From Bacteroidetes bacterium QS_9_68_14 (GTDB lineage: Bacteria > Bacteroidota > Rhodothermia > Rhodothermales > Salinibacteraceae): a stretch of DNA of 41,549 nt. Below the pieces are notes generated by a model. That model ran no database searches and was not told the origin of the DNA. It saw nothing but the letters and a program-made list of their open reading frames with translations. Positions 3,597 through 41,146 of this stretch are shown one piece after another. The stretch lies in assembly GCA_003022535.1 (NCBI GenBank), contig PXTT01000074.1, positions 1 through 41,549 of the forward strand, read 5' to 3'. The stretch's first letter is position 1; each line of letters opens with the position of its first letter. A program made the position numbers and the translations under genes.

Positions 3597-3599
3597 GAA

Positions 3600-4280: not shown

Positions 4281-4426
4281 TTCGTTTGCGGGCCAAGGGA
4301 AAGAGGAAGCACAGAAAGGGGGGCGGTCTGTCGGAGACGCCTTCGCCAAAGCATAGTGAAGACGCTGCTGACAAAAAACCTCACTCTTTTTTTCCCATCT
4401 CTGCGCGAGGCAGGGCCGACGCGCAC

Positions 4427-5647: not shown

Positions 5648-5656
5648 GGCTTCGCC

Positions 5657-5684
5657 GAAGGTTGGAAGGTTTGAGGGGGGAAGG
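5657..5684. repeat. Phased 7-nt repeats upstream of a permease start
   Basis: Read on the minus strand, four 7-base units sit just upstream of the permease ATG: CCTTCCC, CCCTCAA, ACCTTCC, AACCTTC. The C-rich words recur every 7 bases. This is one member of the dispersed heptad family described in the findings. Confidence 0.55.
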
Positions 5685-5770
5685 TGGGGGGGGTCGGAAG
5701 CAAGCGAAAGCGTCGAGCGAAAGGCTCCCTCCTTCTCATACCTTCCCATCCTCGCGCTCGAAGAGCGCAC

Positions 5771-7012: not shown

Positions 7013-7075
7013 GCAGCGGGTGGACTAAAGGTCGAAGGCCTCTCATTGCACTGGCGCCTTTAGCTACGCGACACG

Positions 7076-7102
7076 GCAACGCGATGTTACATGTCGCGTT
7101 GC
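7076..7102. promoter_or_regulatory. Perfect 9-bp inverted repeat in a divergent intergenic region
   Basis: Arms GCAACGCGA and TCGCGTTGC flank a 9-base loop (TGTTACATG) that holds its own short TGT/ACA pairing. It lies 64 bases upstream of the permease start, in the 340-base gap shared with murQ. It could be an operator or an RNA hairpin. The arm word GCAACGCG recurs throughout the window, so a dispersed repeat is also possible. Confidence 0.4.
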
Positions 7103-7262
7103 TCGCCTGCGGCGCGTGGTCTCCTCGCCCCCGGCGGCCCGAAGGCCCGCCGCTCCGAGCACGCGTCCCCGGCAGCGAGGCCCGCTGGCCCCGCCGCTTC
7201 CGCGGGCGAAACGCAGGCGATGGCGTTGCCCATGATTGGCGCGGCGCGGCACAGCTTGCAAT

Positions 7263-7291
7263 TTGACATTCGGACGTACCGGTCGTAAAGT
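7263..7291 (+). promoter_or_regulatory. Candidate promoter for murQ
   Basis: TTGACA (7263-7268) and TAAAGT (7286-7291) are separated by exactly 17 bases and would place the start of transcription about 55 bases before the murQ ATG. The -35 box matches the housekeeping consensus perfectly; the -10 box matches four of six positions. Bacteroidota usually use TTTG/TAnnTTTG boxes instead, so confidence is modest. Between this and the ATG are three octamers of the GTTGCTCC type (about 7306-7329). Confidence 0.35.
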
Positions 7292-7352
7292 GACGCCCGA
7301 GCTGCGTTGCTCCGTTGCTCCGTTGCTTCCTTTTCACTGTTCTTGCTCCTCG

Positions 7353-8432
7353 ATGAGTTCTTCGCCCCGCTCCGACGCCCGCTCCGACGAACCGCCGGGC
7401 GCAGACGCTTCCGGCTCCCCCGACTCGGACATGGCGCTCGCTCCCGAAGAGACCGAAGGGATACCCGAGGAACCGGCCACGCCCTCGGCTCTCTTCGACA
7501 CGCTCGAGGAACTGGCCACCGAGCAACGCAACCCGCGCGCCGGCGGCCTCGACACCGCCTCGGTCGAAGAGATCCTGCACCTCATCAACACCGAAGACCA
7601 CCAGGTGCCCATCGCGGTGCGCCGCGAGATCCCCCACATCGCCCAGGCAGTGCGCCTCATCGGGAAATCCTTCGAAGAGGGCGGGCGCCTGCTCTACGTG
7701 GGCGCCGGCACGAGCGGGCGCCTCGGGGTGCTCGACGCCTCAGAGTGTCCGCCCACGTTCGGGACGGACCCCGGGATGGTGCAAGGCCTCGTGGCCGGCG
7801 GGCGCGCGGCGGTCTTCCGCTCCCAGGAGGGCGTCGAGGACGAAAAGGCCGGCGGCGCCGACATGCTCGAAGCCGTCGAGGCGGCTCCCCCAGACATCGT
7901 CTGCGGTATCGCCGCTTCGAGGCGCACCCCCTACGTCCTCGGCGCGGTCGAGCACGCCCGCGAGGTCGGCTGCCGCACCCTCTTCGTGACGTGCACCCGC
8001 CGCGCGGAGTTTGACCTGGACGTGGACGTGGCCATCTGCCCGACCGTCGGGCCGGAGGTCTTGATGGGCTCGACGCGCATGAAAAGCGGCACCGCGCAGA
8101 AGCTGGTCTTGAACATGCTGACGACCGCCGCCATGATCCGGCGCGGCAAGGCGTACCGCGGCATGATGGTGGACCTGCAGGAAACGAGCCAGAAGCTCAC
8201 CGAGCGCAGCCGGCGCACGGTGATGACGGTCACGGGCCTCAGCTACGACGAGGCGCGCCGCCTGCTTCACGAGGCGGACGGACACGTCAAGACGGCACTG
8301 GTCATGAACCTGGCAGACGTCGCTGCCGACGAGGCGCGCCGACGGCTCGAGCGCGCCAGCGGCTTCGTGCGCCCGGCCATCGAAGACGATCCGCCGCCGC
8401 CCCGAGACAACGGCGCGCCGCCTACCTCTTGA
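7353..8432 (+). CDS. murQ: N-acetylmuramic acid 6-phosphate etherase
   Basis: MurQ splits the lactyl ether of MurNAc-6-phosphate to give GlcNAc-6-phosphate and lactate in peptidoglycan recycling. The 359-residue product has the SIS-domain phosphate-sugar site (YVGAGTSGRLGVLDASECPP), the second signature GPEVLMGSTRMKSGTAQK, and the catalytic-region 'RNPRAGGLDTASVEEIL' near the N-terminus. The C-terminal helical segment (TGLSYDEARRLLHEADGHVKTA) is also typical. The first ~50 residues are a low-complexity acidic/Ser extension. The gene is followed by a NagZ-like fusion on the same strand, so the two form a cell-wall recycling pair. The ATG at 7353 was chosen because everything upstream is non-coding in character. 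Confidence 0.95.
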   Translation: MSSSPRSDARSDEPPGADASGSPDSDMALAPEETEGIPEEPATPSALFDTLEELATEQRNPRAGGLDTASVEEILHLINTEDHQVPIAVRREIPHIAQAVRLIGKSFEEGGRLLYVGAGTSGRLGVLDASECPPTFGTDPGMVQGLVAGGRAAVFRSQEGVEDEKAGGADMLEAVEAAPPDIVCGIAASRRTPYVLGAVEHAREVGCRTLFVTCTRRAEFDLDVDVAICPTVGPEVLMGSTRMKSGTAQKLVLNMLTTAAMIRRGKAYRGMMVDLQETSQKLTERSRRTVMTVTGLSYDEARRLLHEADGHVKTALVMNLADVAADEARRRLERASGFVRPAIEDDPPPPRDNGAPPTS

Positions 8433-8445
8433 AGCGCAGATCACG

Positions 8446-8675
8446 GGCGCGTGGCCGCCGGGGCGCCAACTCGCGAGAAGACGCCCTGGATCGTCACAAG
8501 CGTGGAGTGAAACGCCTCCGAGGCTGAGCGCGCGGCGATCTGGCTCTCCGAGCGGGTGCCATCGGGGAAAGACCCGCTGCGGCGCCGACCTGCTGCTTGA
8601 TCCCGAACTCGTCGTGCGGGCCAGCTGCGGGGCCGCCCGGGCCGGCGAGCGCTCAAAGAACGGGCGCTCGGGAAA
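8446..8675 (-). other. Possible gene remnant between murQ and the GH3 fusion
   Basis: This ~300-base gap has no intact gene. On the minus strand a protein-like stretch ends at a stop at about 8446 (SESQIAARSASEAFHSTLVT, then IQGVFSRVG). Further upstream, in other frames, short coding-like pieces occur (VVFPERPFFERS; HDEFGIKQQV). Joined by frame changes they might be the remains of one gene opposite in direction to its neighbours. I do not recognise the family, and GC-rich non-coding DNA could look like this by chance. Confidence 0.25.
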
Positions 8676-8733
8676 CACGACCTGACCGTCTCGCTTTTTC
8701 GTCTTTCTTTCCTCGCCTCTGCTGCTCAGCTCT

Positions 8734-11700
8734 GTGGCTCGCCTTTTTGGGTTCTCGGTGCCCGCTGCCCCTCCTGCTGCGCGCACGCTGCGCCGCTCGG
8801 GGCTTCTCGCCTTTCTTCTCGTCGCCGTCGCCGGGAGCGCGTTGCTCGGAAGCGTATTGCTCGGAAGCGCGTTGCTCGGCGGGGCTACGCCGGCCCGCGC
8901 CTCCGCGCCAGCCGCCAGCGCGTGGCAAGCGGGCGCCCCGGCCGACACCAGCAAGCCAGCGTCGCTCTCGCAGGCGCAACGCCGCTGGGTCGAGCGCCAG
9001 ATGGAGCGCCTCTCGCTGGCGGAGAAGGTGTCGCAAATGTTCAGCGTCTGGGTCAGCGGCTACTTTCAGCCCACCGGCGACGCCTCGGTGCGCGACGTGG
9101 CCCGGCTGATCGAGGACTTCGGCCTCGGCAGCGTCAGCTTCGGGCGGGGCGCTCCGATGGCGCAGGCGGCCCTGGCGAACGACCTGCAACGCCGAGCGGA
9201 GCTCCCGCTGCTGGTGTCGCAGGACATGGAGTGGGGGCCGGGGATGCGCCTGGAGCGCGCTTCTACGTTTCCCCGCGCGATGGCCGTCGGGGCCACGCGC
9301 GACCCGACCCTGGCCCGCCGGGCGGGCCGCATCACCGGCCGGGAGGCGCGCGCGCTGGGCGTGCAGCACGTCTTCGCGCCGGTGGCCGACGTGAACAACA
9401 ACCCGCTCAACCCGGTCATCGGGACGCGCTCCTTCGGGGAAGACCCGCAGCTCGTGGCGCGCATGGTGCGCGCCTTCGTGAACGGCGTGCAGGAGGGCGG
9501 CGCCATCGCCACGGCCAAGCACTTTCCTGGCCACGGCGACACGAGCGTCGATTCGCACCTGGGCCTGCCGGTGCTCGACATCTCTTCTCGCGCGCGCCTG
9601 GACACGCTCGAGCTCGTCCCCTTCCGCGCAGCCATCGACGCGGGCGTCAGCAGCGTCATGACGGGGCACCTGGCGCTCCCGGCTCTCCAGCCCGACCGCC
9701 GCCGCCGCGGCGCCGACCCGCGCCGCGTGCCGGCCACGCTCTCCCCCCGCCTCACCGATCAACTGCTGCGCGAGGACCTTGGCTTCGAGGGGCTGGTCGT
9801 CACCGACGCGCTCACCATGAGCGGCATCACCGAAGGCTTCGGCGCCGGGGAAGCGGCCATCCGTGCCATCGAAGCCGGGGCCGACGTGCTGTTGAAGTCC
9901 GAGGATTTCTACGCCGCGCGCCACGCCGTGCTGGAGGCGGTGAGCGAAGGCCGCCTGGGGCGGGCACGCATCGACCGCTCGGTGCGGCGTGTCTTGCGGG
10001 CGAAGGCGCAGATGGGCCTTCCGCAGCGCCGACTGGTGGACCTCGCGGCGGTGCGCGAGCGCGTGGGCGCTCCCGAAGACCAGTTGCTGGGCGACGCCAT
10101 CGCGCGCCAGTCGCTGACGCTGCTGCGCAACGAGGAGGGGCTGTTTCCCATGACGCCGGTCAGTGCGCCAGAGCGTGTGCTGGTCGTCGTCTTGAGCGAC
10201 AGCAGCGACCGCTCCACCGGGCGCGCCTTTCGCCAGGTGCTCCAGCGCGGGGTACCGGCGGGCACGGAGCTGACCGTTCGCACGCTCGACGCGCGCTCCG
10301 ACTCCAGCGACTTTGCGGCGGTGCGGGCCGAGGCGACGGCGTACGACGCGGTGCTGGCGCCAGCCTTCCTGCGCGTGCGCTCCGGCGGCGGGCGCATCCG
10401 CCTCCCCGAGGCGCAACGCGCTTTCCTGAATGGCCTCGTCGAGGCCGAGGTGCCCGTGGTGCTCGTGTCGTTCGGCAACGTTTACGGGGCCGCCGGCCTC
10501 CAGGCGCAGCCGGCGGCCTACCTGGCCACCTACGGCACGGAGGCGGCCACGCAGCGGGCGGCCGCGCAGGCGGTCCTCGGAAAAAGCCCGACGCCTGGCA
10601 AGCTGCCCGTCACCGTGCCCGGGGCGTACGACTACGGGGCGGGCATCCCGCTGGAGCAGGTCGCCCCCCGCCGCGACGCGCCCCGCGTGGCCGGCCTGCA
10701 CCCGCGCCGCCTAAGCCGCACCGACTCACTCGTGCGCGCCTCCATCCGCGAGCGGGCCTTTCCCGGGGCCGCCCTGGCAGTGGGGCGCGGGAAAACGGTG
10801 GCGAAAATGCAGGGCTACGGCTACCAGACTTACGCGCTCGACGAACCCGTTACGCCTCGCTCGCGCTTCGACCTGGCTTCCCTCACGAAGGTGGTCGCCA
10901 CGACCCCCGCCGCGATGAAGCTTTACGAAGAAGGCCGGCTTTCGCTCGGCGACCGCGTGGCCAGCCATCTGCCCGCCTTCGCGCAAAACGGAAAAGGCGA
11001 CGTAACCATCCGCCAGCTCCTGACGCACTCGTCAGGCCTGAAAGCCTATCTGGGACCCGAGGAGCGCGGCGACACGCGCGGAAGCATTGAAGAGGCAGTC
11101 ATGGCGCAGCCGCTCCAGTACGAGCCGGGCACCAAGTCCATGTACAGCGGGCTGGGGATGATTGCGCTCCAGCTCGTGATCGAGAAAATCACCGGCCAGT
11201 CGCTGGCGGCCTACGCCGAGGAGCACGTCTTCGAGCCGCTCGGCATGGCGCACACCGGCTTCCGCGCTGCCGGCGCGACCGGCGACTCGTCGTTCGTCCC
11301 CACCGCCGACGGGGAGGACACCTTCTACGGACGCGTGCATGACCCGCTCGCGCGCCAAATGGGCGGGACCAGCGGCAACGCCGGGCTCTTCTCCACTGCC
11401 GAGGACCTCTCGAAGTTCGGCTACATGCTCGTCAACGAGGGCCGCATCTACGGCAAGCAGTTTCTCGAGGCGGAGACGATCGAGACCTTCACCGAGCGCG
11501 CCGAGGGGCTGGGCGGCACCCGCGCGCTCGGATGGGACACCAAGACGATGGGCGCAGGCTACTCCTCAGCCGGTTCGCGCTTCGGCCCCGAGAGCTTTGG
11601 CCACACCGGTTTCACGGGCACCTCCCTCTGGGTCGATCCTGAGCAGGACCTCTTCGCCCTTTTGCTGACTAACCGTGTCTACCCGCGCGGCGGAGCTAAC

Positions 11701-11799
11701 GATAAGATTACAGCGGTGCGTCCGGCGCTGCACGACCTCGTCTATCAGGCCCTCGTCGAAAACGGAAGACCAAACAGCGGACGGGCGCGCAGCAGGTAG
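8734..11799 (+). CDS. GH3 beta-N-acetylhexosaminidase fused to a beta-lactamase-family serine hydrolase
   Basis: This 1,021-residue exported protein has two enzymes in one chain. After a signal-like N-terminus containing three pentapeptide repeats (GSALL, GSVLL, GSALL at 8833-8877), residues ~75-400 are a NagZ-type GH3 domain. It carries KHFPGHGDTSVDSH at 262-275 and the catalytic Asp358 in VVTDALTMSG. A GH3 C-domain-like region follows (about 420-640). Residues ~665-1010 are a class C-like beta-lactamase/DD-peptidase domain with the nucleophile motif SLTK (Ser716, Lys719), a YSG motif, and GHTGFTG. Such fusions are known in Bacteroidota. Next to murQ it fits muropeptide breakdown: one domain removes GlcNAc, the other may act on peptide or ester bonds. 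A GTG start is used. Confidence 0.93.
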   Translation: MARLFGFSVPAAPPAARTLRRSGLLAFLLVAVAGSALLGSVLLGSALLGGATPARASAPAASAWQAGAPADTSKPASLSQAQRRWVERQMERLSLAEKVSQMFSVWVSGYFQPTGDASVRDVARLIEDFGLGSVSFGRGAPMAQAALANDLQRRAELPLLVSQDMEWGPGMRLERASTFPRAMAVGATRDPTLARRAGRITGREARALGVQHVFAPVADVNNNPLNPVIGTRSFGEDPQLVARMVRAFVNGVQEGGAIATAKHFPGHGDTSVDSHLGLPVLDISSRARLDTLELVPFRAAIDAGVSSVMTGHLALPALQPDRRRRGADPRRVPATLSPRLTDQLLREDLGFEGLVVTDALTMSGITEGFGAGEAAIRAIEAGADVLLKSEDFYAARHAVLEAVSEGRLGRARIDRSVRRVLRAKAQMGLPQRRLVDLAAVRERVGAPEDQLLGDAIARQSLTLLRNEEGLFPMTPVSAPERVLVVVLSDSSDRSTGRAFRQVLQRGVPAGTELTVRTLDARSDSSDFAAVRAEATAYDAVLAPAFLRVRSGGGRIRLPEAQRAFLNGLVEAEVPVVLVSFGNVYGAAGLQAQPAAYLATYGTEAATQRAAAQAVLGKSPTPGKLPVTVPGAYDYGAGIPLEQVAPRRDAPRVAGLHPRRLSRTDSLVRASIRERAFPGAALAVGRGKTVAKMQGYGYQTYALDEPVTPRSRFDLASLTKVVATTPAAMKLYEEGRLSLGDRVASHLPAFAQNGKGDVTIRQLLTHSSGLKAYLGPEERGDTRGSIEEAVMAQPLQYEPGTKSMYSGLGMIALQLVIEKITGQSLAAYAEEHVFEPLGMAHTGFRAAGATGDSSFVPTADGEDTFYGRVHDPLARQMGGTSGNAGLFSTAEDLSKFGYMLVNEGRIYGKQFLEAETIETFTERAEGLGGTRALGWDTKTMGAGYSSAGSRFGPESFGHTGFTGTSLWVDPEQDLFALLLTNRVYPRGGANDKITAVRPALHDLVYQALVENGRPNSGRARSR

Positions 11800-11863
11800 C
11801 GACGCCCCCCAGAAGCGTCGCGCGCCATGGGCGCTCTGCGGGGCGGTCCGGCGGCCGAAGCGT

Positions 11864-13054
11864 TCAGCGGCCAGCCGTGGCCAGCAGGTCTTCCAGCGCG
11901 TCGTAGAGCCCATTCGCGCGCGCTTCTTTCAGGCGGCGCACGCCCCGGGCGAGGCGCGTGGCCAGCCCGTCGTCGGTGAAAAAGCGCGCCACCGCCTCCG
12001 CCAGCGCGGCGGGATCTTCCGGCGGGACGACAAGGCCCGCCTGCTCGTGCGGAACGTGCTCGGCGAGCCCGCCCACGTCGGTCGTGATGACGGGGCGGTC
12101 GAAGTGAAAGGCGATCTGCGCCACGCCGCTCTGCGTGGCCGATCGGTACGGCTGCACGACCGCGTCGGCAGCCGCGAAGTAACCGGGCACGTCGCCATCC
12201 GGGACGTACTGGTCGCGGAGATGCACGCGCTCTTCCAACCCGTGCCGGCGGACCTGCGCGCGGTACGGCGCGTCGTCGTCGTAAAACGCGCCGGCCACCA
12301 CGAGGTGCGCCTCCGGCAACGCCGAGAGCACGCGCGGCATCGCTTCCAGCAGTGTGTCGAGCCCCTTGTACGCGCGCACGAAGCCGAAGAAGAGCAACAC
12401 CGGCGCCTCGGCAGGCAGCCCCAGCGCGCGGCGCGCCTCCGCCCGCACGGGGGCCTCGCCGAAACGGTCGTAGACCGGGTGCGCCACCTGCCGCACCGGC
12501 GCCCAGACGCCCAGCCTGCGCAGGTCGCTCTCCACGGCCTCCGAAAGCACGAGGTGGCCGGTGCACGCCTTCAAGAAAAAGCGCGCGAGCGCGTCGCCGA
12601 AGGGGAAGCGCTCGTGCGGCGTGGCGTTGTGCACCACCGCCATCGACGGGACGCCGCGCCGCCGCAGGAGCCGCGCGACCGTGCCGTAGGCCGGGGCGAA
12701 AAACGGCATCCAGTACTGAAAGAGCGCCGCGCTCGCTCCGCTCTCGGCCACGCGCCGCGCGGTGCGCCTCCACGAAAGCGGCCCGCAGGAGTCCAGCAGC
12801 CGCTCCGCTCTGCCCGCGTGGCCGCTCTCGCCCGCCCCGGGCGCAAGCTGCGTCTCTCCGGGGAACAGAAGCGACGGGTACTGCCGCAAGAACGTCACCG
12901 GCGTCACCGCGTGGCCGCGCGCTTCGAGGCCGCCGCGTAGCGTCTCGCCGAAGTGCGCGATGCCGCCCCGGTACGGCGGGTACGGGCCGATCAGCGCAAG
13001 TTTGCGGGACTGCGAAGTTGCCGGGGACGGCGGCTTCGGGTTTCCGGTGCTCAT
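11864..13054 (-). CDS. Glycosyltransferase, GT4 type
   Basis: This 396-residue protein has the two-domain GT-B layout. The N-terminal domain has LALIGPYPPYRGGIAHFGE, a glycine-rich acceptor-side loop. The C-terminal domain begins near LLFFGFVRAYKGLDTLLEAM and contains SGVAQIAFHFDRPVITTDVG, the nucleotide-sugar binding region of GT4 enzymes. It probably transfers a sugar to a cell-envelope glycan or lipid; donor and acceptor cannot be told. It lies 53 bases downstream of the aldo/keto reductase on the same strand and converges with the GH3 fusion, 64 bases apart. Confidence 0.88.
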   Translation of the reverse strand: MSTGNPKPPSPATSQSRKLALIGPYPPYRGGIAHFGETLRGGLEARGHAVTPVTFLRQYPSLLFPGETQLAPGAGESGHAGRAERLLDSCGPLSWRRTARRVAESGASAALFQYWMPFFAPAYGTVARLLRRRGVPSMAVVHNATPHERFPFGDALARFFLKACTGHLVLSEAVESDLRRLGVWAPVRQVAHPVYDRFGEAPVRAEARRALGLPAEAPVLLFFGFVRAYKGLDTLLEAMPRVLSALPEAHLVVAGAFYDDDAPYRAQVRRHGLEERVHLRDQYVPDGDVPGYFAAADAVVQPYRSATQSGVAQIAFHFDRPVITTDVGGLAEHVPHEQAGLVVPPEDPAALAEAVARFFTDDGLATRLARGVRRLKEARANGLYDALEDLLATAGR

Positions 13055-13107
13055 GCGTTTCAGGTCGCCTGCTCGGACACTTCAACGCCTCGCCCTCCGG
13101 CTCTCTT

Positions 13108-14115
13108 CTACCGGTTTACCGAACTCATGTCTGAGTAGCGAGCGCCAGCCGCCGCCCCTTGCGGAGCAATCTCGTCAAGATGAGCGAGATCAGCGCCCGT
13201 CAGCGTCACCTTCGTCGCCCCCGCGTTTTCTTCGAGATGCTCTACGCTCGTGGTGCCGGGAATCGGCACGATCTCGGTGCCCTCGGCGTGGCCCTCCTCC
13301 TCGCCTTGCGCGAGCACCCAGGCTAGCGCAAGCTGCGCAGGCGCGACGCTCTTCTCAGCCGCCATGTCCTCGACCGCCCCGACGAGTTTCAGGTTCTGCT
13401 CGAAGTTCTCCCGCTCGAAGCGCGGGTAGCGCTCGGCACGGAAGTCGCCCTCCGGCAGGTCGTCCGGCGATTGGAAGCGGCCCGTCAGAAAGCCGCGTCC
13501 CAGCGGGCTGTACGGCACGAAGCCGACCCCGAGCTCGCGGCACGTCGGCAGGATCTCCTCTTCGGGAAAGCGGCTCCAGAGCGAATACTCCGTTTGGAGC
13601 GCCGTGATCGCGTGCTCGCCGTTCGCGCGGCGGATCGTCTCCGGCGCCGCCTCCGAGAGGCCCAGTGCGCGCACCTTGCCTTCGTCCACGAGCCGCCCCA
13701 TCGCGCCAACGGTCTCCTCGATGGGCACGTCCGGGTCCACGCGGTGCTGGTAGTAGAGGTCGATGGTGTCCACGCCTAGCCGCTGGAGGCTCGCCTCGCA
13801 GGCTTCGCGCACGTACTCCGGCCGCCCGTCGACGCCGTGGAAGCCCCCGTCCTCGCTGCGCACGTTGCCGAACTTCGTGGCGATCACGGCCTTCTCGCGG
13901 TGGCCGTCGAGCGCCTTGCCTACCAGCTTTTCGTTGGTGAACGGGCCGTACATGTCGGCCGTATCGAAGAAGGTGATTCCGAGGTCGAGCGCGCGGTGAA
14001 TCGTGTCGATGCCGTCCTGCTTGTCGGGGGTTCCGTAAAACTCGGACATGCCCATGCAGCCGAGGCCGAGGGCGGAGACTTCGAGCTTCCCGGAGCCAAG
14101 GGTGCGGGTGTGCAT
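13108..14115 (-). CDS. Aldo/keto reductase
   Basis: This 335-residue NADPH-dependent oxidoreductase of the AKR superfamily (AKR13-like) starts [20 protein letters not shown]. The catalytic tetrad is visible: Asp51 and Tyr56 in FFDTADMYG, Lys81 in VIATKFG, and His124 in LYYQHRVDP. The C-terminal cofactor region [19 protein letters not shown] is complete. The natural substrate is unknown; relatives reduce small aldehydes and ketones. It sits between two glycosyltransferase genes on the same strand, with gaps of 65 and 53 bases, so co-transcription is likely though a shared pathway is not proven. The ATG at 14115 matches family N-termini. Confidence 0.95.
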
Positions 14116-14180
14116 GACGGGTTGACAAGGGGAAGGAGGAAACGTTCTCGGGGTCGCGTGGCTGATTTTCGTTCGCCTGG

Positions 14181-15200
14181 CTACGATCGTGTGCCCACCG
14201 TCTCGCTCACGCGCTCGTCCCCTCGCCCATTCCCTCGCTCTCCCACGCTCCCGCGCCCAGACGCCGCCCGCTCGCTGACCTGGTAGGAGGGGCTCTTCTC
14301 CATGCGCGGGCGCACGATCATCTCGCCCAGCAGGCCGGTCGTAAAGAGCTGCGCGCCCAGCAGCAAGAGCAGCACGCCGAAGAGCAGCAGCGGCCGGTCG
14401 CCCAGCGGGTTGCCCAGCACGATCTTCTCGAATGAAAGCCACAGGCTAATTAGAAAGCCCGCCGCGAAGGCCATGCTGCCGAGCCCGCCGAAGAAGTGCA
14501 TCGGCCGCGTGGCGAAGCGCGTCAAAAAGACGACCGAGACCATGTCCAGAAAGCCGCGCACGAAGCGCTCCGCGCCAAACTTCGTCTCGCCGTAGCGGCG
14601 CGCGTGATGCTCGACGGGCCGCTCGCCGATGCGGTCGAAGCCTTCCCACTTGGCCAGAAGTGGGATGTAGCGGTGCAGCTCGCCGTAGACGTGCACCGCG
14701 TCGGTTACTTCGCGGCGGTAGACCTTCAGCCCGCAGTTGAAGTCGTGGATCTGGATGCCGCTAATCAGGCGCGTGACGGTGTTGAAAAAGCGGCTCGGGA
14801 GCGTCTTGCTCCAGGGGTCCTCCCGGTCCTGCTTCCAGCCGCTCACCAGGTCGTAGCGCCCCTTGCGCAGCTTCTCGACGAGGGCGGGAATCTCGGCCGG
14901 GTCGTCCTGGAGGTCAGCGTCGAGCGTGGCCACGAGCTCGCCACGCGCTTCTTCGAACCCGCTCGCCAGCGCAGCGCTCTTGCCGTAGTTGCGCGCCAGG
15001 CGCACGCCCCGAAACCGGCTTCCCTCCGTGGTGTGCTCCGCGCAGAGCGCTTCGATCTCCTCCCACGAGCCATCCGCCGAGCCATCGTCCACCAGGATGA
15101 CTTCGTAGTCGAACTCCGCGCACGCCTCGCGCAGACGCCCGGCCAGCTCCGGCAGCGACGCCTCCTCTTCGTAGACCGGCACGACCACGGACAATTCCAT
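14181..15200 (-). CDS. Polyprenol-phosphate glycosyltransferase, GT2 (DPM1/ArnC-like)
   Basis: The 339-residue product has an N-terminal GT-A domain with [26 protein letters not shown] and the metal-binding [10 protein letters not shown]. Two membrane helices follow (about 237-260 and 275-300; the second ends [10 protein letters not shown]). This layout is typical of enzymes moving a sugar from a nucleotide to an undecaprenyl-phosphate carrier for surface glycans. The tail of ~30 residues after VSERAASG is Gly/Arg/Glu-rich and seems to be translated low-complexity DNA. Starts at 15254 or 15233 are also open, but the ATG at 15200 is directly before the conserved MELSVVVP, and the DNA upstream is heptad repeat. 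Confidence 0.9.
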
Positions 15201-15228
15201 GTTGGTCTTCGGATTTTCGACTTCGGAT
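15201..15228. repeat. Phased 7-nt repeats at the GT2 start
   Basis: On the minus strand four 7-base units, ATCCGAA, GTCGAAA, ATCCGAA and GACCAAC, end exactly at the ATG of the GT2 gene. The unit ATCCGAA is repeated exactly after 14 bases. If the upstream ATG at 15233 were used, these units would be translated. Confidence 0.65.
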
Positions 15229-15306
15229 TGCATGTCGATTGGAGACCAATCCAAAATGCCCGCCCCGAGCGAAGTGAGGACGTGCTCTCAGGAGGCCCTC
15301 TCCAGT

Positions 15307-16371
15307 CTAAAACTGCGCGTACCACGGCCCGTCGAGGTCGGCTTCGTAGACGCGGCTGGCCCGGTCGGCATCATCGCTGTCGATGACGAAGTAGACGTGA
15401 TCCGTCTCGCCGGGCTTGCGGCTGAGCCCCTCGACCTTGCCTTCAAACGGTTCGCCGCCTTCATCGAGGAGCTCTGCCCAGCGGGCCTCCCCGTCCGCGT
15501 CGATGATGCCCAGCACCGACCCGACGATCTCCCCCGTCTCTTCGTTCTCTGCCGAGGCGCTAAAGAGCGTGATGCCCTCCTCGAGGGCCTCGGCGTCGCT
15601 AAAGGTCAGGCGCACGCCGTGCAGGTCGCCCAGCTCGTACTGGATGACGTTCTCGATGGCCGGGGGCGCGGTACCAATGGGGTCGGCGAGGTAGGCCTTG
15701 AGGGCCGGCCAGCTGAGGTCGCCGGTCGCGTCGACGGGCTGAAGATCGCCACGCGGATCGGCGTTGCCGCGCTGGAAGAGGCGCAGGCGCTCTGGCCCCA
15801 TGAAGACGGCGCCCTCGACGTTGAGGCCGCTGCCAGCGAAGGCACGGTCCTGGCGCAGCCGCCCATGAAAGGCGGGCGTCTCGATCAGGCGTGTGTCCGG
15901 CGCGCCGTCGTGATCTTTGTCCTGCCAATCGACCGTGACGACCCACTCGGCGGTTTTGTGCGAGCCGCTGCCGAAAGCGACCAGGTACTCTCTGTTCGCG
16001 CCCGGGTCGGAGGCGCAGGCTTCGAGGTCGAGCTTACTGCCAACGTCACCGGTGTGCGCCTGGTCGTCGTGGACGCGCGCGCCATCGGGGGCGGGCGGAA
16101 GCGGGACGCCGCGCACCTCGTGCGTGTCGGAGTCGACGAGGCCGAGGAAGTTGGCGTCGTCCTGCACCAGCGCGAAGCGGTCGATCAGGCGCACCAGGGC
16201 GCTGGCGGCGCGCACGTGGCCGGGCGCCTCCACACGGCCTTCCTCGGCGGCCCCATCGTCTATGCGGTCGTAGGTCAGCGGCGAGGAGCGCACGATTCGG
16301 GCCGTCAGTTCGTCGGCCTTGTGGGCCTGGACGGTGCGCACGGTGGGAGACGGCGTGTCGGTAGTGGGCAC
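15307..16371 (-). CDS. DUF6929-like protein of unknown function
   Basis: The product (about 354 residues from the GTG at 16371) matches an uncharacterised family seen in Bacteroidota and other bacteria. It opens with LTARIVRSSPLTYDRIDDGA and has LVRLIDRFALVQDDANFLGL, KLDLEACASDPGANREYLVAFGSG in pieces, and a beta-rich remainder with a FAGSGLNVEGAVF segment. The pattern suggests a beta-propeller-like fold, but this is inference. A longer frame reaches an ATG at 16524, but its extra residues look non-coding and would overlap the toxin gene, so the later GTG is preferred. The start remains uncertain. No reaction is known. Confidence 0.7.
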   Translation of the reverse strand: MPTTDTPSPTVRTVQAHKADELTARIVRSSPLTYDRIDDGAAEEGRVEAPGHVRAASALVRLIDRFALVQDDANFLGLVDSDTHEVRGVPLPPAPDGARVHDDQAHTGDVGSKLDLEACASDPGANREYLVAFGSGSHKTAEWVVTVDWQDKDHDGAPDTRLIETPAFHGRLRQDRAFAGSGLNVEGAVFMGPERLRLFQRGNADPRGDLQPVDATGDLSWPALKAYLADPIGTAPPAIENVIQYELGDLHGVRLTFSDAEALEEGITLFSASAENEETGEIVGSVLGIIDADGEARWAELLDEGGEPFEGKVEGLSRKPGETDHVYFVIDSDDADRASRVYEADLDGPWYAQF

Positions 16372-17165: not shown

Positions 17166-17247
17166 GGCAGTTTGGTGAGTGGTGAGTAGCAAACGGCGAT
17201 GGATGGGTGGAGAAGCGCCACTCCCTATTCTGCACTTTCCACTCACC
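17166..17247. repeat. Phased 7-nt repeats filling the gyrB-antitoxin gap
   Basis: On the minus strand the whole 82-base gap can be divided into 7-base units such as TGGAAAG, TGCAGAA, TAGGGAG, TGGCGCT, then TTGCTAC, TCACCAC, TCACCAA. A T opens most units, and TCACCA recurs exactly after 7 bases. The run begins by the gyrB stop and ends by the antitoxin ATG. It is the longest run of the dispersed heptad family in the window. Confidence 0.6.
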
Positions 17248-19466: not shown

Positions 19467-20093
19467 TCACACCTCTCGCTCCAGCCACGCAGCGAAGCTG
19501 AGGAGGCGCTGCAAGAAAAGCGCCATCGGCTCGCCGAAGGGGTCGCCGGCGACGTTGCTCCCTTCGCTCAGCTCCGCCAGCGCGCCCTGGCAGCGGCGCG
19601 CCTCTTCCACGAGCTCCCCGGAGACGGCCGGGTACAGACTCATCAGGCGCTGGTGCGCGCCGTGCAGCAGGCGACCCGTGCGGCGCAGTTTCATCAGCAC
19701 GTCGAACCGGCGCACCGCAGCCACGCGGCGCGCGGAGGCCTCCTCGGGGGCGCCGGCAGCAGAATCGGGTTCGGCGCAGTCGGTTCCAGCGGGGCCACCG
19801 TCCTGGGCGGAGCCGTCGTCTCGGGCGGGGCCGTCGCCGGGAGGGCGGCGCGTGGCCTGCACCTTCGCCATGAGAAGCTGCATGTGCAGGCGCGTGAGTT
19901 CGCGCGCCGCCTCGACGAGGTAGGCGCGCGCGTCCTCGGCCGGCTGCTGGGCGGCCGGGTCGCGCCCAGCGCGGCGCTCTCCGATGGCGCCCTTCACCGT
20001 CCAGGCCGTCTGGAGCGTGGCCAGAAGCGCCATCGGCGGCAAGGCCGTGTCGATTCCACCGCTGCTGGGGTCGTCAGGAGAAGAAGCGCTCAT
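19467..20093 (-). CDS. Hypothetical protein, predominantly helical
   Basis: This 208-residue protein is not one I recognise. It appears helical, with an N-terminal part (MALLATLQTAWTVKGAIGER; YLVEAARELTRLHMQLLMAK) and a C-terminal part (RRFDVLMKLRRTGRLLHGAH; ALFLQRLLSFAAWLEREV). The halves are separated by a Gly/Asp/Ala-rich linker of about 40 residues. No signal peptide or membrane helix is clear. Coding is supported by consistent codon bias, its position between same-strand genes (66 bases after the CBS gene) and the absence of frame breaks. Confidence 0.65.
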   Translation of the reverse strand: MSASSPDDPSSGGIDTALPPMALLATLQTAWTVKGAIGERRAGRDPAAQQPAEDARAYLVEAARELTRLHMQLLMAKVQATRRPPGDGPARDDGSAQDGGPAGTDCAEPDSAAGAPEEASARRVAAVRRFDVLMKLRRTGRLLHGAHQRLMSLYPAVSGELVEEARRCQGALAELSEGSNVAGDPFGEPMALFLQRLLSFAAWLEREV

Positions 20094-20159
20094 GACGGGA
20101 AGGAACGTCCGTGGGGACGGAAGACGGCCGTCCCCGGTCCGGCGAGCAGAGCGAACCGT

Positions 20160-30948: not shown

Positions 30949-30976
30949 ACCATCCACCATCTACCATCCACCATCT
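30949..30976. repeat. Four perfect phased 7-nt repeats between the two-component genes
   Basis: ACCATCC and ACCATCT alternate twice over 28 bases, giving an exact 14-base tandem duplication made of 7-base halves. The run touches the response-regulator stop codon (30975-30977). It is the cleanest example of the heptad family. Confidence 0.8.
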
Positions 30977-31709
30977 ACGAACCGACGAGCTCCTCGCGCT
31001 CGGCGAAGCGGTAGCCCACGCCCCAGACCGTTTGCACGAAGCGGGGCTCGGAAGGGTCGTCCTCGATTTTCCCGCGCAGGCGGTTGATGTGCGTGTTGAC
31101 GGTGTGGGAGTAACCCTCGTACTGGTAGCCCCACACCTCGTCCAGCAGCTCGCTGCGGTCGTATGCCCGGCCCGGGTGGCGCGCCAACAGGAGCAGCAGG
31201 TCGAACTCTTTGGCCGTCAGCTCCAGCAGGTCGTTCCCGTGCCATACCTTGCGCTTCGGCGGGGCAATGACCAGCGGGCCGAAGGCGATCTCCTCGGGGG
31301 CTTCGTCCTGGGCCTCGCGGTCCACCTCCACGCGGCGAAAGAGCGCCTTCACCCGCGCGATGAGCTCGCGGATGCTGAACGGCTTGGTCACGTAATCGTC
31401 CGCGCCCAGCTCCAGGCCCAGCACCTTGTCGGCCTCCTCGCTCTTAGCCGTGAGCATGAGAATGGGAAGCCGGTTGTCGTCGGCGCGCACGCGCTTGCAC
31501 ACCTCCGTTCCATCGAGTTCCGGCAGCATCAGGTCGAGGATGAGCAGGGCGTAGTCGCGTTCCTGCGCGTGTCTCAGCCCGGCCACGCCGTCGTGAGCGA
31601 GGTCCACCGCGTAGCCGAGGTCGCGCAGGTGGATCTCCAGCAGATGGGCCAGGTCCTCGTCGTCTTCCACTACGAGGATGCGCTCGGGGTCGTCGTCGGG
31701 AGCAGGCAT
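30975..31709 (-). CDS. OmpR-type response regulator
   Basis: The 244-residue protein has an N-terminal receiver (acidic pocket in ILVVEDDEDL; phospho-acceptor Asp59 in LILDLMLPELDG; Thr in ILMLTAKS; Lys in DYVTKPFS). Its C-terminal winged-helix DNA-binding domain includes LTAKEFDLLLLLARHPGRAY and the recognition region YSHTVNTHINRLRGKIEDD. It forms a two-component pair with the histidine kinase, whose gene starts 108 bases downstream on the same strand. Target genes cannot be told. The ATG at 31709 is chosen because the upstream frame is low-complexity and includes heptads. Confidence 0.95.
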   Translation of the reverse strand: MPAPDDDPERILVVEDDEDLAHLLEIHLRDLGYAVDLAHDGVAGLRHAQERDYALLILDLMLPELDGTEVCKRVRADDNRLPILMLTAKSEEADKVLGLELGADDYVTKPFSIRELIARVKALFRRVEVDREAQDEAPEEIAFGPLVIAPPKRKVWHGNDLLELTAKEFDLLLLLARHPGRAYDRSELLDEVWGYQYEGYSHTVNTHINRLRGKIEDDPSEPRFVQTVWGVGYRFAEREELVGS

Positions 31710-31779: not shown

Positions 31780-31878
31780 CGGACCGTAGGTGGTAGGTCG
31801 TAGATCGGGGATGGTTTTGCAGGCGCAGGCGACCGCAGCGCAAAGCCGTCATCCACTATTCACTGTTTACCATTCACC
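31780..31878. repeat. Two heptad tracts in the regulator-oxidase divergent gap
   Basis: On the minus strand, 31780-31807 reads as CGATCTA, CGACCTA, CCACCTA, CGGTCCG. On the plus strand, 31855-31875 reads as ACTATTC, ACTGTTT, ACCATTC followed by ACC. Both are 7-base phased. They lie in the 418-base gap (31710-32127) between the response regulator and the FAD/Fe-S oxidase; the rest of that gap holds a promoter and no gene. Confidence 0.65.
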
Positions 31879-32127: not shown

Positions 32128-35100
32128 ATGCCTGGCCCTGCCGCGTCCCCTTCTGCCGACGCCGCGCCCACCGACGCGCTCCCCTCCGGCTTTGCAGAAG
32201 CCCTCGTCCCACGCCTGGAGGGGGGCGAGCTGCGCACCGACGACATGACGCGCGCGCTCTACGCCACCGACGCAAGCATGTACCAGTCCCGGCCCGGGGG
32301 CGTCCTCTTCCCGGCCACCGCCGCCGGCGTGGAAGCCGCCCACGCAGTGTGCTCGCGCTTCGGCGTGCCGGTGCGCCCGCGCGGAGGCGGCTCCTCGCTG
32401 GCGGGCCAGACGATGGGGGCGGGCCTGGTGCTGGACTTCTCGCGCCACATGGACGCCGTTCTCGAGATCGACCCCGAGGCCAAGACCGCACGCGTTCAGC
32501 CGGGCGTGGTGCTGGCGGACCTGAACCGCGTAGCGGCCCGGCACGGCCTTACGGTGGGGCCGGACCCCTCCTCGGGCAACCGCGCGACCCTCGGCGGCAT
32601 GACCGCCACCAACGCTACGGGCACCCACTCGATCCTCTACGGCAACGTGATCCACCACGTGCGCCGCATCGAGGGCGTGCTGGCGGACGGCACCCCCGTG
32701 GCCTTCGGCGGGCCACGCTCCGAGGAAGAATGGCGCGACGGCTACCGCTCGGACGGACGCGCGGGCGAGCTTCGCCGCGAGCTCGGCCAGTTCGTGGCTG
32801 ACAACAAGGAGGTCATCGCGCGCGACACGCCGCGCCACTGGCGCCGCAACAGCGGCTACCGCCTCGAGCACCTGCTGCCCGCCGAGGACTTCCAGGAGAC
32901 GCGCCCCGGCATCGACGGCGACCCGCACTTCCGGGTCGAGCGCCCAGGCGCCGAGAACGGCAGCGAAGGGGGGAGCGCGCCCGGCGGGCGCGACCTCGCG
33001 CGCCTCGTGTGCGGCAGCGAGGGCACCCTCATGACCTTCACCGAGATCGAGATCGGGCTGGTGGAGCGGCCGGAACAGACCGCGCTGGGGCTGGCGCACT
33101 TCCGGACGCGGCAGGCGGCGCTTCGCGCGGTGGAGCGCGTGCTGGAAACGGGCCCCTCTGCGGTGGAGCTCTTCGACGGCGTGGCGATCGAAAGCTGCCG
33201 CGAGGCCCCCGGCTTTGCCGACCTGCTTACTTTCGTCGAGGAGGCGCCGCCGGGCCGTCTCAACGAGGGCGGCGATCCCGGCGGCCTGCTCATTACCGAG
33301 TACAGCCACATGCCCGCCGGGGGCGACGGCGCGCCCGCAGGCCACGCCCTGGAGGCGAAGCTCGACGCCCTCGAGGACGCCGTCGCAGAGGCGCCCGGAG
33401 GCTACGCCGTCGTGCGCCGTACCGACCCGCAGGCCATCAAAGACGTGTGGACGTTGCGCAAAGAGGGCCTCGGCCTCTTGATGGGCACCCAGAGCGAGCA
33501 GAAGCCGTGGGCCTTCATCGAGGACGCGAGCGTGCCCGTCGCGCAGCTGCCCAGCTACATCGACGAGCTTTCGTCCTTGATCGACGAGACGGGCACGAAG
33601 GCCGTCTACTACGCGCACGCCTCCGGCGGCTGCCTGCACGTGCGCCCGTTCGTCAACACGAAGGACGCGGCCGACCTGGAGACGATGGAAAAGATCGCGC
33701 GCGGCTCGATGGAGGCGGTCGCCCGCCACGGGGGCTCCGTTTCCAGCGAGCACGGCGACGGGCGGGCGCGTGGCTGGCTCAACGAGGAGTTTCTGGGGTC
33801 GGAGCTGTACCAGCTCAACCGCCGCCTGAAACAGATCTTCGATCCCGAGGGCCTCCTCAACCCCGGCGTGATCGTGGACCCCCCACCGATGGAAGAGGAG
33901 CTGCGCATGGGGCCGTCGTACGACACGAGCCCTCCCCAGACGGAACTGGACTTCTCCGAAGACGGGGGCTTTACCGGGGCGGTGGAGCTGTGCAACGGCA
34001 ATGGGGCCTGCCGCAAGACCGGGAGCGGCACGATGTGCCCCAGCTACCGGGCCACGCGCGAGGAAGAGCACTCCACCCGCGGCCGCGCCAACGCCCTACG
34101 CATGGCCCTCAGCGGGGATCTGCCGGAAGGCGCGTTCACGGGCGAGCGCATGAAGGAGGTCATGGACCTGTGCATCCAGTGCAAGGCGTGCAAGACGGAA
34201 TGCCCCTCGAACGTGGACATGGGCAAGCTCAAAAAAGAATGGCTTGCGAAGGTGCACGACGAGGAGGGCCTGCCCCTGCGCGACCGCCTCTTTAGCGGGC
34301 TGCCGGACGTGAGCCGCCGCGTGGCCGGCACCCCGCTCACGCGCCTGATCAACGCGGTCAACCGGCTCGCCCCGGTCCGCTGGGGCCTCGAAAAGACGCT
34401 CGGCGTAGCCTCGGGGCGCAAGCTACCCCCCTTCGCGCGCGAAACCTTTCGCCAATGGTTCGACGGTTCGGGGTTCAGCCTTCAGGGGTTGGAGAACGCT
34501 CCCCCAGACCGGACACCACAATCCGAAAACCGTGTAGCGATTTTCCCCGACACGTTCACCAACTTTCACACGCCGGAGGTCGGGAAGGCGGCCACGCGCG
34601 TTCTGCGGGCGCTGGGCCTGGAGCCCGTGCTGCCGGAGGCAGGGTCGCTCTGCTGCGGGCGCACGCTGCTCTCGAAGGGGCGCATCAGCAAAGCGCAGCG
34701 GCAGGCCGTCAGCACCGTCGAGGCGCTGATGCCCTTCGCGCGGGCCGGCGTCCCGGTCGTGGGGCTGGAGCCGAGCTGCACGAGCGCCCTCACCGACGAC
34801 CTGACGACGATGCTGCCCGGCGACCCGCACGCCGAAGCGGTCGCCGAGGCGGTCGTCTCGTTCGAGGGGCTCTTGCACCGCCGCGCCGCCGAGGACGCGT
34901 GGCCGGCGGCAAGCGCGGACGTGTGGGCCGGCCACGCCGAGCGCGACGTGCTGCTGCACGGCCACTGCCACCAGAAAGCGCTCGAAGGCGTGGCCCCGGC
35001 CGAGGCGGCCCTGTCACTCCCCCCCGGCCACGCGGTGGAGGCGGTGGGCGCCGGCTGCTGCGGCATGGCCGGTGCCTTCGGCTACGAAAAAGAGCACGTC

Positions 35101-35268
35101 AGCGTCTCGAAGGACATGGCCGAGCTGAAGCTGGCTCCTGCCGTGCGCGAGGCCTCGGGCGACGTGGCCATCGCCGCGCCGGGCTTTTCGTGCCGCTCGC
35201 AGATCGCGGACACGACCGGGCGCGAGGCGCTTCACCCCGCCCAGGTGCTCGACCGGGCGCTGGCGTGA
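32128..35268 (+). CDS. FAD-linked oxidase/Fe-S fusion (YdiJ-like D-2-hydroxyacid dehydrogenase)
   Basis: This 1,046-residue protein joins a PCMH-type FAD-binding domain (about 20-300; VRPRGGGSSLAGQTMG, TVGPDPSSGNRATLGG) and an FAD-oxidase C domain (VSSEHGDGRARGWL). Next is a ferredoxin-like part with clusters starting at Cys622 (CNGNGACRKTG) and Cys682 (CIQCKACKTECP). Two CCG domains follow (LCCGRTLL with Cys842; GCCGMAGAFG with Cys977). The order matches YdiJ-like enzymes that oxidise D-lactate, D-2-hydroxyglutarate or related acids and feed electrons to the membrane. The linker between the Fe-S and CCG parts (about residues 775-802) is encoded by heptad repeats. The ATG at 32128 fits the upstream promoter. 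Confidence 0.93.
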   Translation: MPGPAASPSADAAPTDALPSGFAEALVPRLEGGELRTDDMTRALYATDASMYQSRPGGVLFPATAAGVEAAHAVCSRFGVPVRPRGGGSSLAGQTMGAGLVLDFSRHMDAVLEIDPEAKTARVQPGVVLADLNRVAARHGLTVGPDPSSGNRATLGGMTATNATGTHSILYGNVIHHVRRIEGVLADGTPVAFGGPRSEEEWRDGYRSDGRAGELRRELGQFVADNKEVIARDTPRHWRRNSGYRLEHLLPAEDFQETRPGIDGDPHFRVERPGAENGSEGGSAPGGRDLARLVCGSEGTLMTFTEIEIGLVERPEQTALGLAHFRTRQAALRAVERVLETGPSAVELFDGVAIESCREAPGFADLLTFVEEAPPGRLNEGGDPGGLLITEYSHMPAGGDGAPAGHALEAKLDALEDAVAEAPGGYAVVRRTDPQAIKDVWTLRKEGLGLLMGTQSEQKPWAFIEDASVPVAQLPSYIDELSSLIDETGTKAVYYAHASGGCLHVRPFVNTKDAADLETMEKIARGSMEAVARHGGSVSSEHGDGRARGWLNEEFLGSELYQLNRRLKQIFDPEGLLNPGVIVDPPPMEEELRMGPSYDTSPPQTELDFSEDGGFTGAVELCNGNGACRKTGSGTMCPSYRATREEEHSTRGRANALRMALSGDLPEGAFTGERMKEVMDLCIQCKACKTECPSNVDMGKLKKEWLAKVHDEEGLPLRDRLFSGLPDVSRRVAGTPLTRLINAVNRLAPVRWGLEKTLGVASGRKLPPFARETFRQWFDGSGFSLQGLENAPPDRTPQSENRVAIFPDTFTNFHTPEVGKAATRVLRALGLEPVLPEAGSLCCGRTLLSKGRISKAQRQAVSTVEALMPFARAGVPVVGLEPSCTSALTDDLTTMLPGDPHAEAVAEAVVSFEGLLHRRAAEDAWPAASADVWAGHAERDVLLHGHCHQKALEGVAPAEAALSLPPGHAVEAVGAGCCGMAGAFGYEKEHVSVSKDMAELKLAPAVREASGDVAIAAPGFSCRSQIADTTGREALHPAQVLDRALA
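34452..34532. repeat. Heptad-phased DNA inside the oxidase coding sequence
   Basis: Within the gene, units such as GACGGTT, CGGGGTT, CAGCCTT, then GGACACC, ACAATCC, GAAAACC follow each other in 7-base register. They encode a low-complexity linker (GFSLQGLENAPPDRTP) between the Fe-S and CCG domains. The total keeps the reading frame. This is a coding member of the intergenic heptad family. Confidence 0.5.
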
Positions 35269-39236: not shown

Positions 39237-39957
39237 ATGCTTCGCCCCGCCACGCTACCTGCCGCCGCAGCCCTTCACCCTCGGGGCTTGCCAGATCGAC
39301 GGCCCCCATACCTCGCTGGGGTCCCCCCGCTGGACTACTCGGTCCCCCCCGCTGGACTACTCGGTCCCCCGCTCCGCATCCGTCGAGGCCGGCGTGGCCA
39401 CGCGCGTGGAGGGGGTCGCCAGGGCCGGTCCGTCGCGTGAAGGCGTGGAGGGCCTCTCGAAGGTCCGTGCGGAGGGGACGGCCCGCGCGCGCTCTGACTC
39501 GACGCTCCTGGCGAACGTGCAGCTCTCTCTACCGAGCGCCGCAGGGACGCCGTGCGCATTGAGGCCCCGTTCCCCGAGAACATGCACGGAAGCGCGGCGC
39601 TGGACTTCGCCGTGAAGGTGCCCGCCGGGCCGGCCCTCACGGCCGAGGATGCGAGCGGCGACCTGGCGGTACGGCGCGTGGCCCCGCTCGAATTGACTGA
39701 CTCCTCAGGCGACATTCGCGTTGAAGAGGTCGCCGGCAACGCCCGCATCAAGGATCCCTCCGGCGCCCTGCGGCTACGCGGCGGTGCGCGATGGGGGCAG
39801 CGGCTTCGTCGTCGAGTCGAAGGGCAGCGGCGACGTGCGCCATCGGGGCGTGAGCGGACGCGTGCAGGTGCTCCCCCGAATTTCGGTGACGCCGCCGCGT
39901 GGGCTTATCCTTCGTCCTCGAAGAGCAGCAACGTCGAGAGGCGCGCGTTCTCCTTGA
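39237..39957 (+). pseudogene. DUF4097-like beta-strand repeat protein, multiply frameshifted
   Basis: Behind a strong promoter, coding-like pieces appear in turn in different frames. They are VEAGVATRVEG with LSKVRAEGTARARSDSTLLA, then ERRRDAVRIEAPFPENMHG with LELTDSSGDIRVEEVAGNAR, then AVRDGGSGFVVESKGSGDVR. The 'SGDIRVEEVAG' and 'GSGDV' words are the repeating beta-strand turns of DUF4097 proteins. Frame changes occur near 39532-39534 and 39776-39781, and at least one more is needed before 39380. No signal peptide is intact. A tandem 21-base duplication sits in the 5' part. The function of the family is unknown; members are often exported or cell-surface. Confidence 0.6.
39321..39374. repeat. 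21-bp tandem repeat (three 7-nt units)
   Basis: Two exact 21-base copies starting at 39321 and 39342, plus a partial third copy from 39363. Each copy is built from GTCCCCC, CGCTGGA and CTACTCG. It falls in the 5' part of the broken DUF4097-like gene. Its length is three times the heptad period seen elsewhere. Confidence 0.85.
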
Positions 39958-40721: not shown

Positions 40722-40839
40722 GGCGAGGGGGAAGCGGCGAGCCGAAATGACGGCGGGGCCGCTTCCACCGTGCGGCGGGGATCAGGTTGCGCCGCGGTTG
40801 TAACGTATCGTTTTCGGGCTGGGGGCCGGCGAAGGACTG

Positions 40840-40869
40840 AAAAAGCACCGTCCCTGGAGGGACGGTGCT
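40840..40869 (-). terminator. Intrinsic terminator formed by the degenerate last CRISPR repeat
   Basis: Read on the minus strand, AGCACCGTCCC pairs perfectly with GGGACGGTGCT through a 4-base TCCA loop and is followed at once by TTTTTC. This is a textbook Rho-independent terminator. Its stem is the palindromic core of the CRISPR repeat at 40906-40940, so it appears to have evolved from the terminal repeat. Confidence 0.75.
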
Positions 40870-40940
40870 GTATCTCGTAGACGGCAGAGCGCGGGACGGG
40901 CTGGACTTTCAATCCTCACCGTCCCCGAAGGGACGGTGCT
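40844..40940 (-). CRISPR. Minimal CRISPR array: two repeats, one spacer
   Basis: An intact repeat (40906-40940, ~35 bases) has, in transcription sense, the hairpin ACCGTCCC-TTCG-GGGACGGT and the 3' handle GGATTGAAAG, typical of type I-C repeats. A 36-base spacer (40870-40905) separates it from a degenerate second repeat (40844-40869 and a few bases beyond) that keeps the hairpin but lost the ATTGAAAG end. The array lies 206 bases downstream of cas2 in the same orientation. One spacer only suggests loss, recent acquisition, or a collapsed assembly. The spacer target is unknown. Confidence 0.82.
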
Positions 40941-41146
40941 GTTGGCATTTCTTACAATAGGCTGCCGCGCAGAGACTTGCAAGGCCCATTTCGCAGACCC
41001 ATACCCCGGCCACGCGCGACTGAGAGAGCGGAAAACGACTTCGTGTAAGCCACCTGTTGCGAGAGAGCCAGTTAGAAAGATTCGCAGACCTTCCCGCCTT
41101 TTCATGAGCACCCCTAGTCCGCGCCGAGGGCGCAGCGACGGCTTCC
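40941..41146 (-). other. CRISPR leader region
   Basis: This 206-base gap between the cas2 stop and the first repeat holds no gene. It is where the leader promoter and integration signals normally lie. Short A+T-rich patches occur next to the repeat (about 40946-40960), but no promoter boxes are convincing. Confidence 0.55.

Follow-up and report, generated by a model that had tools for sequence, protein, structure and literature searches.

Can repeat DNA of the kind that lies in the gaps between genes also become part of a protein-coding gene? The question was raised by a FAD oxidase gene in the window, that is, the whole stretch of 41,549 nucleotides analysed here, in which the linker between the Fe-S and CCG domains lies within the open frame and appeared to consist of heptads. 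The preliminary description had called the enzyme YdiJ-like; its Pfam matches are given in Table 1. The open frame runs from 31882, and the start of the gene is uncertain. The interval originally assigned to the repeats, 34452-34532, begins 10 bases ahead of the linker proper and leaves out its last base.

Contig C74, which makes up the window, belongs to a metagenome genome of 1.76 Mb (G000; 56% complete, G+C 69%). A 349-kb sample of G000, consisting of the window and 20 stretches from other contigs, was analyzed together with samples of two congeners, G001 and G002; the homologous region of G001 lies on its contig C42. Genes were called by a simple codon-usage caller made for this analysis, so that some of the gap and coding labels are wrong. 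A search of the whole window against Rfam at gathering thresholds returned a tRNA as the sole match.

Table 1. Features of the window discussed in the text
Feature	Position	Strand	Basis
FAD oxidase gene with Fe-S and CCG domains	32128..35268	+	Pfam FAD_binding_4, FAD-oxidase_C, Fer4_8/Fer4_17, CCG; gene call
Linker of 24 codons (DGSGFSLQGLENAPPDRTPQSENR), gap-type heptad DNA	34462..34533	+	lag-7 shuffles, Markov score, pLDDT
Keto (G/T-rich) heptad arm, GACGGTT CGGGGTT CAGCCTT CAGGGGT	34457..34494	+	read directly; keto fraction 0.64, left half
Amino (A/C-rich) heptad arm, CCCAGAC CGGACAC CACAATC CGAAAAC	34499..34531	+	read directly; keto fraction 0.25, right half
Palindromic heptad element, whole gap between two minus-strand gene calls	17166..17247	.	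lag-7; modulo-7 direct 5.2, inverted 6.9; fold z -2.3/-3.2
Palindromic heptad element, upstream of the oxidase gene and also present in G001	31786..31878	.	fold z -2.2 on +, -0.4 on -
Heptad array ACCATCC/ACCATCT at gap edge; similar sequence in G001	30949..30978	.	tandem-repeat listing, G001 comparison

Period and composition of the oxidase linker

Read directly, the linker contains four keto units at 34462-34489, followed by four amino units at 34503-34530. The lag-7 identity at 34452-34532 was 32/74, a value reached by 0.8% of the 81-base windows of the contig, and the lag-7 total of the linker stood out against both dinucleotide shuffles (p = 0.001) and codon shuffles (p = 0.002). In the same two tests, lag 14 gave p values of 0.015 and 0.03, lag 8 was weak (p 0.03-0.04), and lags 5, 10, and 11 were unremarkable. 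The linker gave only a weak signal in a strict modulo-7 phase test, since its units drift in phase: its direct score was reached by 14% of 28,715 coding windows, and 3.6% of them were equally high in the inverted test. The units are degenerate, no two neighbouring ones are identical, and Tandem Repeats Finder at a score of 30 gave zero rows in 34452-34532. The near-identical neighbouring copies of a perfect tandem repeat or microsatellite were thus not found.

The keto fraction dropped from 0.65 to 0.24 over 34452-34532, the switch of the linker was 0.41, and the linker has the keto-rich 5' half and amino-rich 3' half (0.64 vs 0.25) of spacer-type heptad elements. When the counts were restricted to N-free windows, a switch of at least 0.40 was found in 2 of 86,133 coding windows of the 349-kb G000 sample, both at the linker itself, and in 111 of 18,325 gap windows of G000. 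At looser thresholds (switch 0.36, lag-7 30), mis-called or read-through gaps passed too, together with one ordinary-looking coding place in G002 (L091 8252). A candidate coding case at L031 14964 was discarded on reading the sequence, as it is a gap mis-called as coding, with the stop and the next start of plus-strand genes around it; it also fell below the 0.40 threshold.

The k-mer make-up was examined with a third-order Markov model contrasting 87 heptad-rich gaps with coding DNA in a five-fold held-out design, the loci carrying the linker being left out of both training and test. The linker scored 14.3, and none of the 45,890 held-out coding windows, which overlap (step 9) and correspond to roughly 5,100 independent ones, was as high; in k-mer make-up it thus resembles the heptad-rich gaps. 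Nor was its score reached by any of 11,155 internal coding windows of like G+C, or by any of 7,135 internal windows that had both a like G+C and many disorder-promoting residues, and it was still 13.1 when G000 was omitted from training. For comparison, the scores of four heptad gaps of the contig were 4.0-8.1 in the first training. Among 8,292 other internal coding windows of this contig, the highest score was 4.8, or 6.4 in the second training, and three further parts of the oxidase that are variable or of low confidence scored -2.4 to -7.6. DNA identity to G001 is also low at 34850-34969 in the oxidase gene (68-69%); this part is G+C-rich, and its Markov score is not gap-like. Other coding lag-7 segments were judged by eye to be probable leaders, gene ends or read-through, an example being L037 4628, which lies ahead of an ATG.

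In the AlphaFold model of the oxidase, the mean pLDDT was 82.6, and residues 786-797, inside the linker (779-802), were below 50. The linker is a disordered, length-tolerant loop, partly modelled at low confidence and varying freely across the order. By period, polarity, and k-mer make-up, spacer-type heptad DNA occupies this disordered, freely varying linker in G000. The proposal that the linker is encoded by seven-base units like those of the gaps was therefore borne out by the lag-7 statistics, the keto-to-amino switch, and the gap-like k-mer make-up.

Heptad elements in the gaps between genes

Among the gap segments scoring at least 12 in the 349 kb of G000, lag 7 was the leading period with 21 segments, followed by lags 14 (18), 16 (13), 15 (12), 6 (9), and 8 and 18 (8 each); the remaining lags among 2-35 had at most 7 each. 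When multiples of 3 were excluded, only lags 14, 16, and 8 exceeded 7 segments besides lag 7. Lag 7 also led the gaps of the G001 and G002 samples, in the latter jointly with lag 14. By eye, many of the gap elements looked palindromic, a G/T-rich heptad arm being separated from an A/C-rich one by a short G+C-rich centre. The lag-7 identity exceeded 0.36 in 76 of 250 gaps of 50-200 bases from the three species, compared with 24 at lag 10, and 69 of these 76 heptad-rich gaps had the keto-to-amino sign. With respect to the orientation of the flanking genes, they accounted for 20/85 (++), 42/115 (--), 13/34 (+-), and 1/16 (-+) gaps. Heptad-rich gaps folded slightly better than their shuffles (mean z -0.58, -0.74, and -0.68 in the three species, with 16-19% below -2); the mean z of heptad-poor gaps was -0.05 to -0.19, with 0-6% below -2. 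Of seven strong gap elements picked for testing, five had an RNA fold z below -2 for one strand or both.

Comparison of the gaps between congeners revealed both retention and change. The element upstream of the oxidase gene can be aligned to G001, the gap around it being 78% identical, indicating that not every gap changes its word. At gap 20034-20159, the G001 counterpart (L082) is 67 bases longer and has a heptad palindrome that G000 lacks. A stretch of another G000 contig (L033, on C3) carries ribosomal-protein genes, of which S3 and L23 were checked by Pfam, and on comparison of its positions 3327-15329 with L231, L232, and L233, many of the ribosomal-protein gaps showed heptad and some octad-like palindromes. 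In G000, 10 of the 19 gaps of 60-160 bases in this stretch had a lag-7 identity above 0.36, 5 of them in all three species, and the heptad words often differed between congeners; at gap 9789-9873, for instance, units of the TTTGG type were seen by eye in G000 and G001, and units of the GGTTTCGG type in G002. Across the 18 gaps shared by two or more species, arms from one species matched each other better than arms from different species did (9.96 vs 8.24, Wilcoxon p 0.003; arms of other gaps, 7.41), and this advantage was found in 12 of the 18.

Stretches of some other genera contained isolated clear heptad arrays, and others contained none. Elsewhere in the order, spacers from outside the genus had strong arrays at L217 11330-11423 (CCAGCAG-type) and L225 9263-9355 (GTTCAGA/GTTCAAC-type). 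Within the window, the gap at 40722-41146 contains two near-identical short hairpins, recognized by eye (CACCGTCCC...GGGACGGTGCTGT), and a perfect 22-base tandem repeat of 2.2 copies occupies 39323-39370. Open frames running through gap-like DNA join arginine deiminase to a deaminase (L086 487-2448), LysM to an Rce1-like domain (L031 15451-17391), and DeoC to aldehyde dehydrogenase (L089 12495-16112); these joined frames may be real fusions or may just be missing stops.

Congeners, orthologues, and the origin of the linker

The linker was followed in an orthologue survey in which 59 of 60 genomes gave a match; 58 loci were used, and 57 of them contain the linker. Its length ranged from 7 to 42 amino acids, most commonly 11, with single-residue differences, and no steps of 7 residues were found among the 57 linkers. 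The linker comprises 24 amino acids in G000, 25 in G001, and 20 in G002, and 4 of the 57 are longer than that of G000. Linkers of 30-42 amino acids without heptads occur in three other genomes, indicating that length alone needs no heptads, and a lag-7 signal was absent from five further linkers of long or medium length (L203, L200, L195, L208, and L202). The frame-keeping expansion in multiples of 21 bases proposed in the preliminary description is thus contradicted by the lengths in the congeners and in the wider set; from that proposal, heptad DNA inside an intact coding frame is the part that stands. The opposite outcome that it had envisaged, a linker conserved in residues and length without repeats, was not encountered either, as neither is conserved.

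In DNA comparison with G001, identity was 83-90% in the eight bins of 60 bases that precede the linker, 84-93% in the five that follow it, and 63% and 55% in the two linker bins. The G001 linker has a heptad run of its own with a different word (AGCCAAA AACCAGA AACCAAG AATCGCG), which was significant as a maximal segment (p 0.004-0.006) and only p 0.09 as a lag-7 total. In the G001 sample, three coding lag-7 segments containing A/T were listed, this run being one of them. No lag-7 signal was present in the G002 linker (p 0.71), and the keto switch was absent from the linkers of both congeners (0.06 in G001 and 0.07 in G002). The Markov score of the G002 linker was reached by 17 of the 45,890 coding windows, and that of G001 by 137, or by 67 of the 11,155 G+C-matched windows, a modest gap-likeness. 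The linkers of both congeners therefore lean gap-like, one of them with its own heptads, and together with the gap-type DNA in the open frame of G000 they uphold the earlier suggestion insofar as such DNA can lie within coding sequence. The G001 oxidase gene differs at its 3' end (L101/L081 6203-6414): its final 43 residues match in a different frame, with one stop, and the stretch matching 35131-35223 is missing.

The RNA fold of the linker was no better than that of its shuffles (z 0.19/-0.39), and 92% of 102 windows of the oxidase gene were at least as stable. Its arms did not match in G000 (score 6.0, shuffle mean 6.55, p 0.77), so that the inverted-repeat pairing of the gap elements was not found there, and arm pairing was not found in the G001 linker (p 0.23); the arms of the G002 linker matched (10 vs a shuffle mean of 4.65), yet without heptads. 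An RNA hairpin was accordingly rejected for the linker; with unpaired arms and no excess of folding, it is unlikely to form one, and a complete palindromic gap element was not demonstrated. What it shares with the gap elements is polarity, period, and make-up. No second copy of the linker DNA was detected in the searched sequence of G000, where only the linker itself matched, and G001 and G002 gave weak matches only (E 0.04-0.8), so the linker does not belong to any conserved repeat family. Likewise, several copies of a conserved element sequence, as in the mobile palindromic elements of Rickettsia, were not found in G000 (56% complete), G001, or G002.

Taking these findings together, we consider it probable that the linker represents spacer-type heptad DNA in a disordered, length-tolerant loop, turning over between species, probably as at gene junctions. 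The main competing account is chance, in which a fast-evolving, less G+C-rich, and disorder-promoting linker merely resembles heptad or gap DNA. The hypervariability of the linker everywhere among the orthologues would fit such a coincidence, as would the weak strict phasing, the unpaired arms, and the G002 linker without lag-7. We regard it as unlikely, because none of the disorder-rich internal windows of like G+C reached the gap-likeness of the linker, the keto switch occurred nowhere else in the sampled coding windows at the 0.40 threshold, the G001 linker has independent heptads, and the five long or mid-length linkers named above lack a lag-7 signal. Slippage during replication of a heptad in place, with a filter for frame, would explain the 14 amino acids (42 bases) by which the G001 linker exceeds the commonest length, and slippage has been proposed for heptads, which are over-represented among bacterial simple repeats (PMC4692102, PMC4679880). 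We consider this quite unlikely: the two-polarity make-up argues against slippage of one unit, which alone would not yield the keto-to-amino switch; neighbouring units are never identical; and the single-residue spread of lengths argues against 21-base steps.

A functional nucleic-acid element kept inside the gene, either an mRNA hairpin or heptads that bind a protein, would account for a polarity that is common to the heptad-rich gaps and for gap arms that match better within than between species, and is very improbable for the linker given its ordinary fold and its lack of sequence conservation in the congeners. The linker would be a relic of gene fusion if an intercistronic heptad gap had been retained when two genes joined, and each of the three joined frames described above does combine two unrelated Pfam families with gap-like DNA inside; we likewise disfavour this origin as highly improbable, because the orthologous loci read across the order have both domains in one frame with short linkers.

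Gap-type heptad DNA probably entered the loop, or was copied there, at about the time of the genus ancestor, and rewriting has probably gone on since then, alongside ordinary substitutions and small indels that keep the frame. The heptad DNA may have arrived as a cassette or may have grown in place. Selection would then keep only the frame and the absence of stops, not the repeat count, the residues, or a hairpin, and the entry or rewriting would be attributable to a process acting at gene junctions. A more far-reaching version, which we regard as doubtful, is that heptad-phased palindromic cassettes occur at gene junctions in the genus, with the keto arm after a stop and the amino arm before the next start, that their words are rewritten between species while the arms stay matched, and that the same rewriting reached the coding linker; such cassettes may be intercistronic hairpins that couple translation.

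Significance and relation to known repeats

The linker illustrates how spacer DNA, which has mutational habits of its own, can turn into protein sequence and leave the gene unbroken, and, if the more far-reaching version is true, the spacer process would be a source of new disordered protein sequence. It also points to a wider phenomenon, in which the palindromic heptad architecture of gene junctions in one genus, including the ribosomal-protein gaps, often persists between species and the words do not. With this pattern, comparison of congeners can test how bacterial heptad repeats arose and what their function is.

Heptad repeats in bacterial spacers are known, and a degenerate example inside a gene is a modest novelty. 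Among the papers listed for Salinibacter heptamers and degenerate heptameric intergenic repeats in mainly open-access literature, no description of such a case was found. Four systems resemble it in part; intrastrand triplex repeats are the subject of a further report (PMC4666352). Rehm et al. (2015, PMC4692102) described heptameric spacer repeats, GGGAATC in Xanthomonas and GGGGA(C/T)T in Nostoc, with over-representation of heptads among bacterial simple repeats and, in Xanthomonas, inverted pairs and between-species variation. The elements described here likewise consist of seven-base spacer units, some arranged as convergent inverted pairs, and vary in sequence and length between close species at the same gene pairs. 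They differ in that, in place of one G-rich word type per genome, there are many words, degenerate units, and a keto-to-amino polarity, and in that one case lies inside an enzyme gene. The TAACTGA repeats of Beggiatoaceae, Cyanobacteria, and some Bacteroidetes (MacGregor 2015, PMC4679880) are also direct heptad repeats in spacers, accompanied in some Bacteroidetes by other heptamers; unlike the present elements, they have a fixed word, are nearly always direct, and often lie just upstream of start codons.

Two further systems reach into genes. Rickettsia palindromic elements enter protein genes in frame (review PMC10969869) and are similar in being palindromic repeat DNA in frame inside protein genes; they form families of ~150 bp with open frames encoding a conserved peptide, whereas the linker has neither a second copy nor a conserved peptide, and only period, polarity, and make-up. 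The tandem repeats of Borgs (Schoelmerich et al. 2023, PMC9879509) resemble the linker in evolving fast, in occurring in both spacers and genes, and in creating disordered regions; their in-gene unit lengths are divisible by three and their units are perfect or nearly so, in contrast to the degenerate seven-base units of the linker. The linker thus fits none of these four systems fully and shares parts of each.
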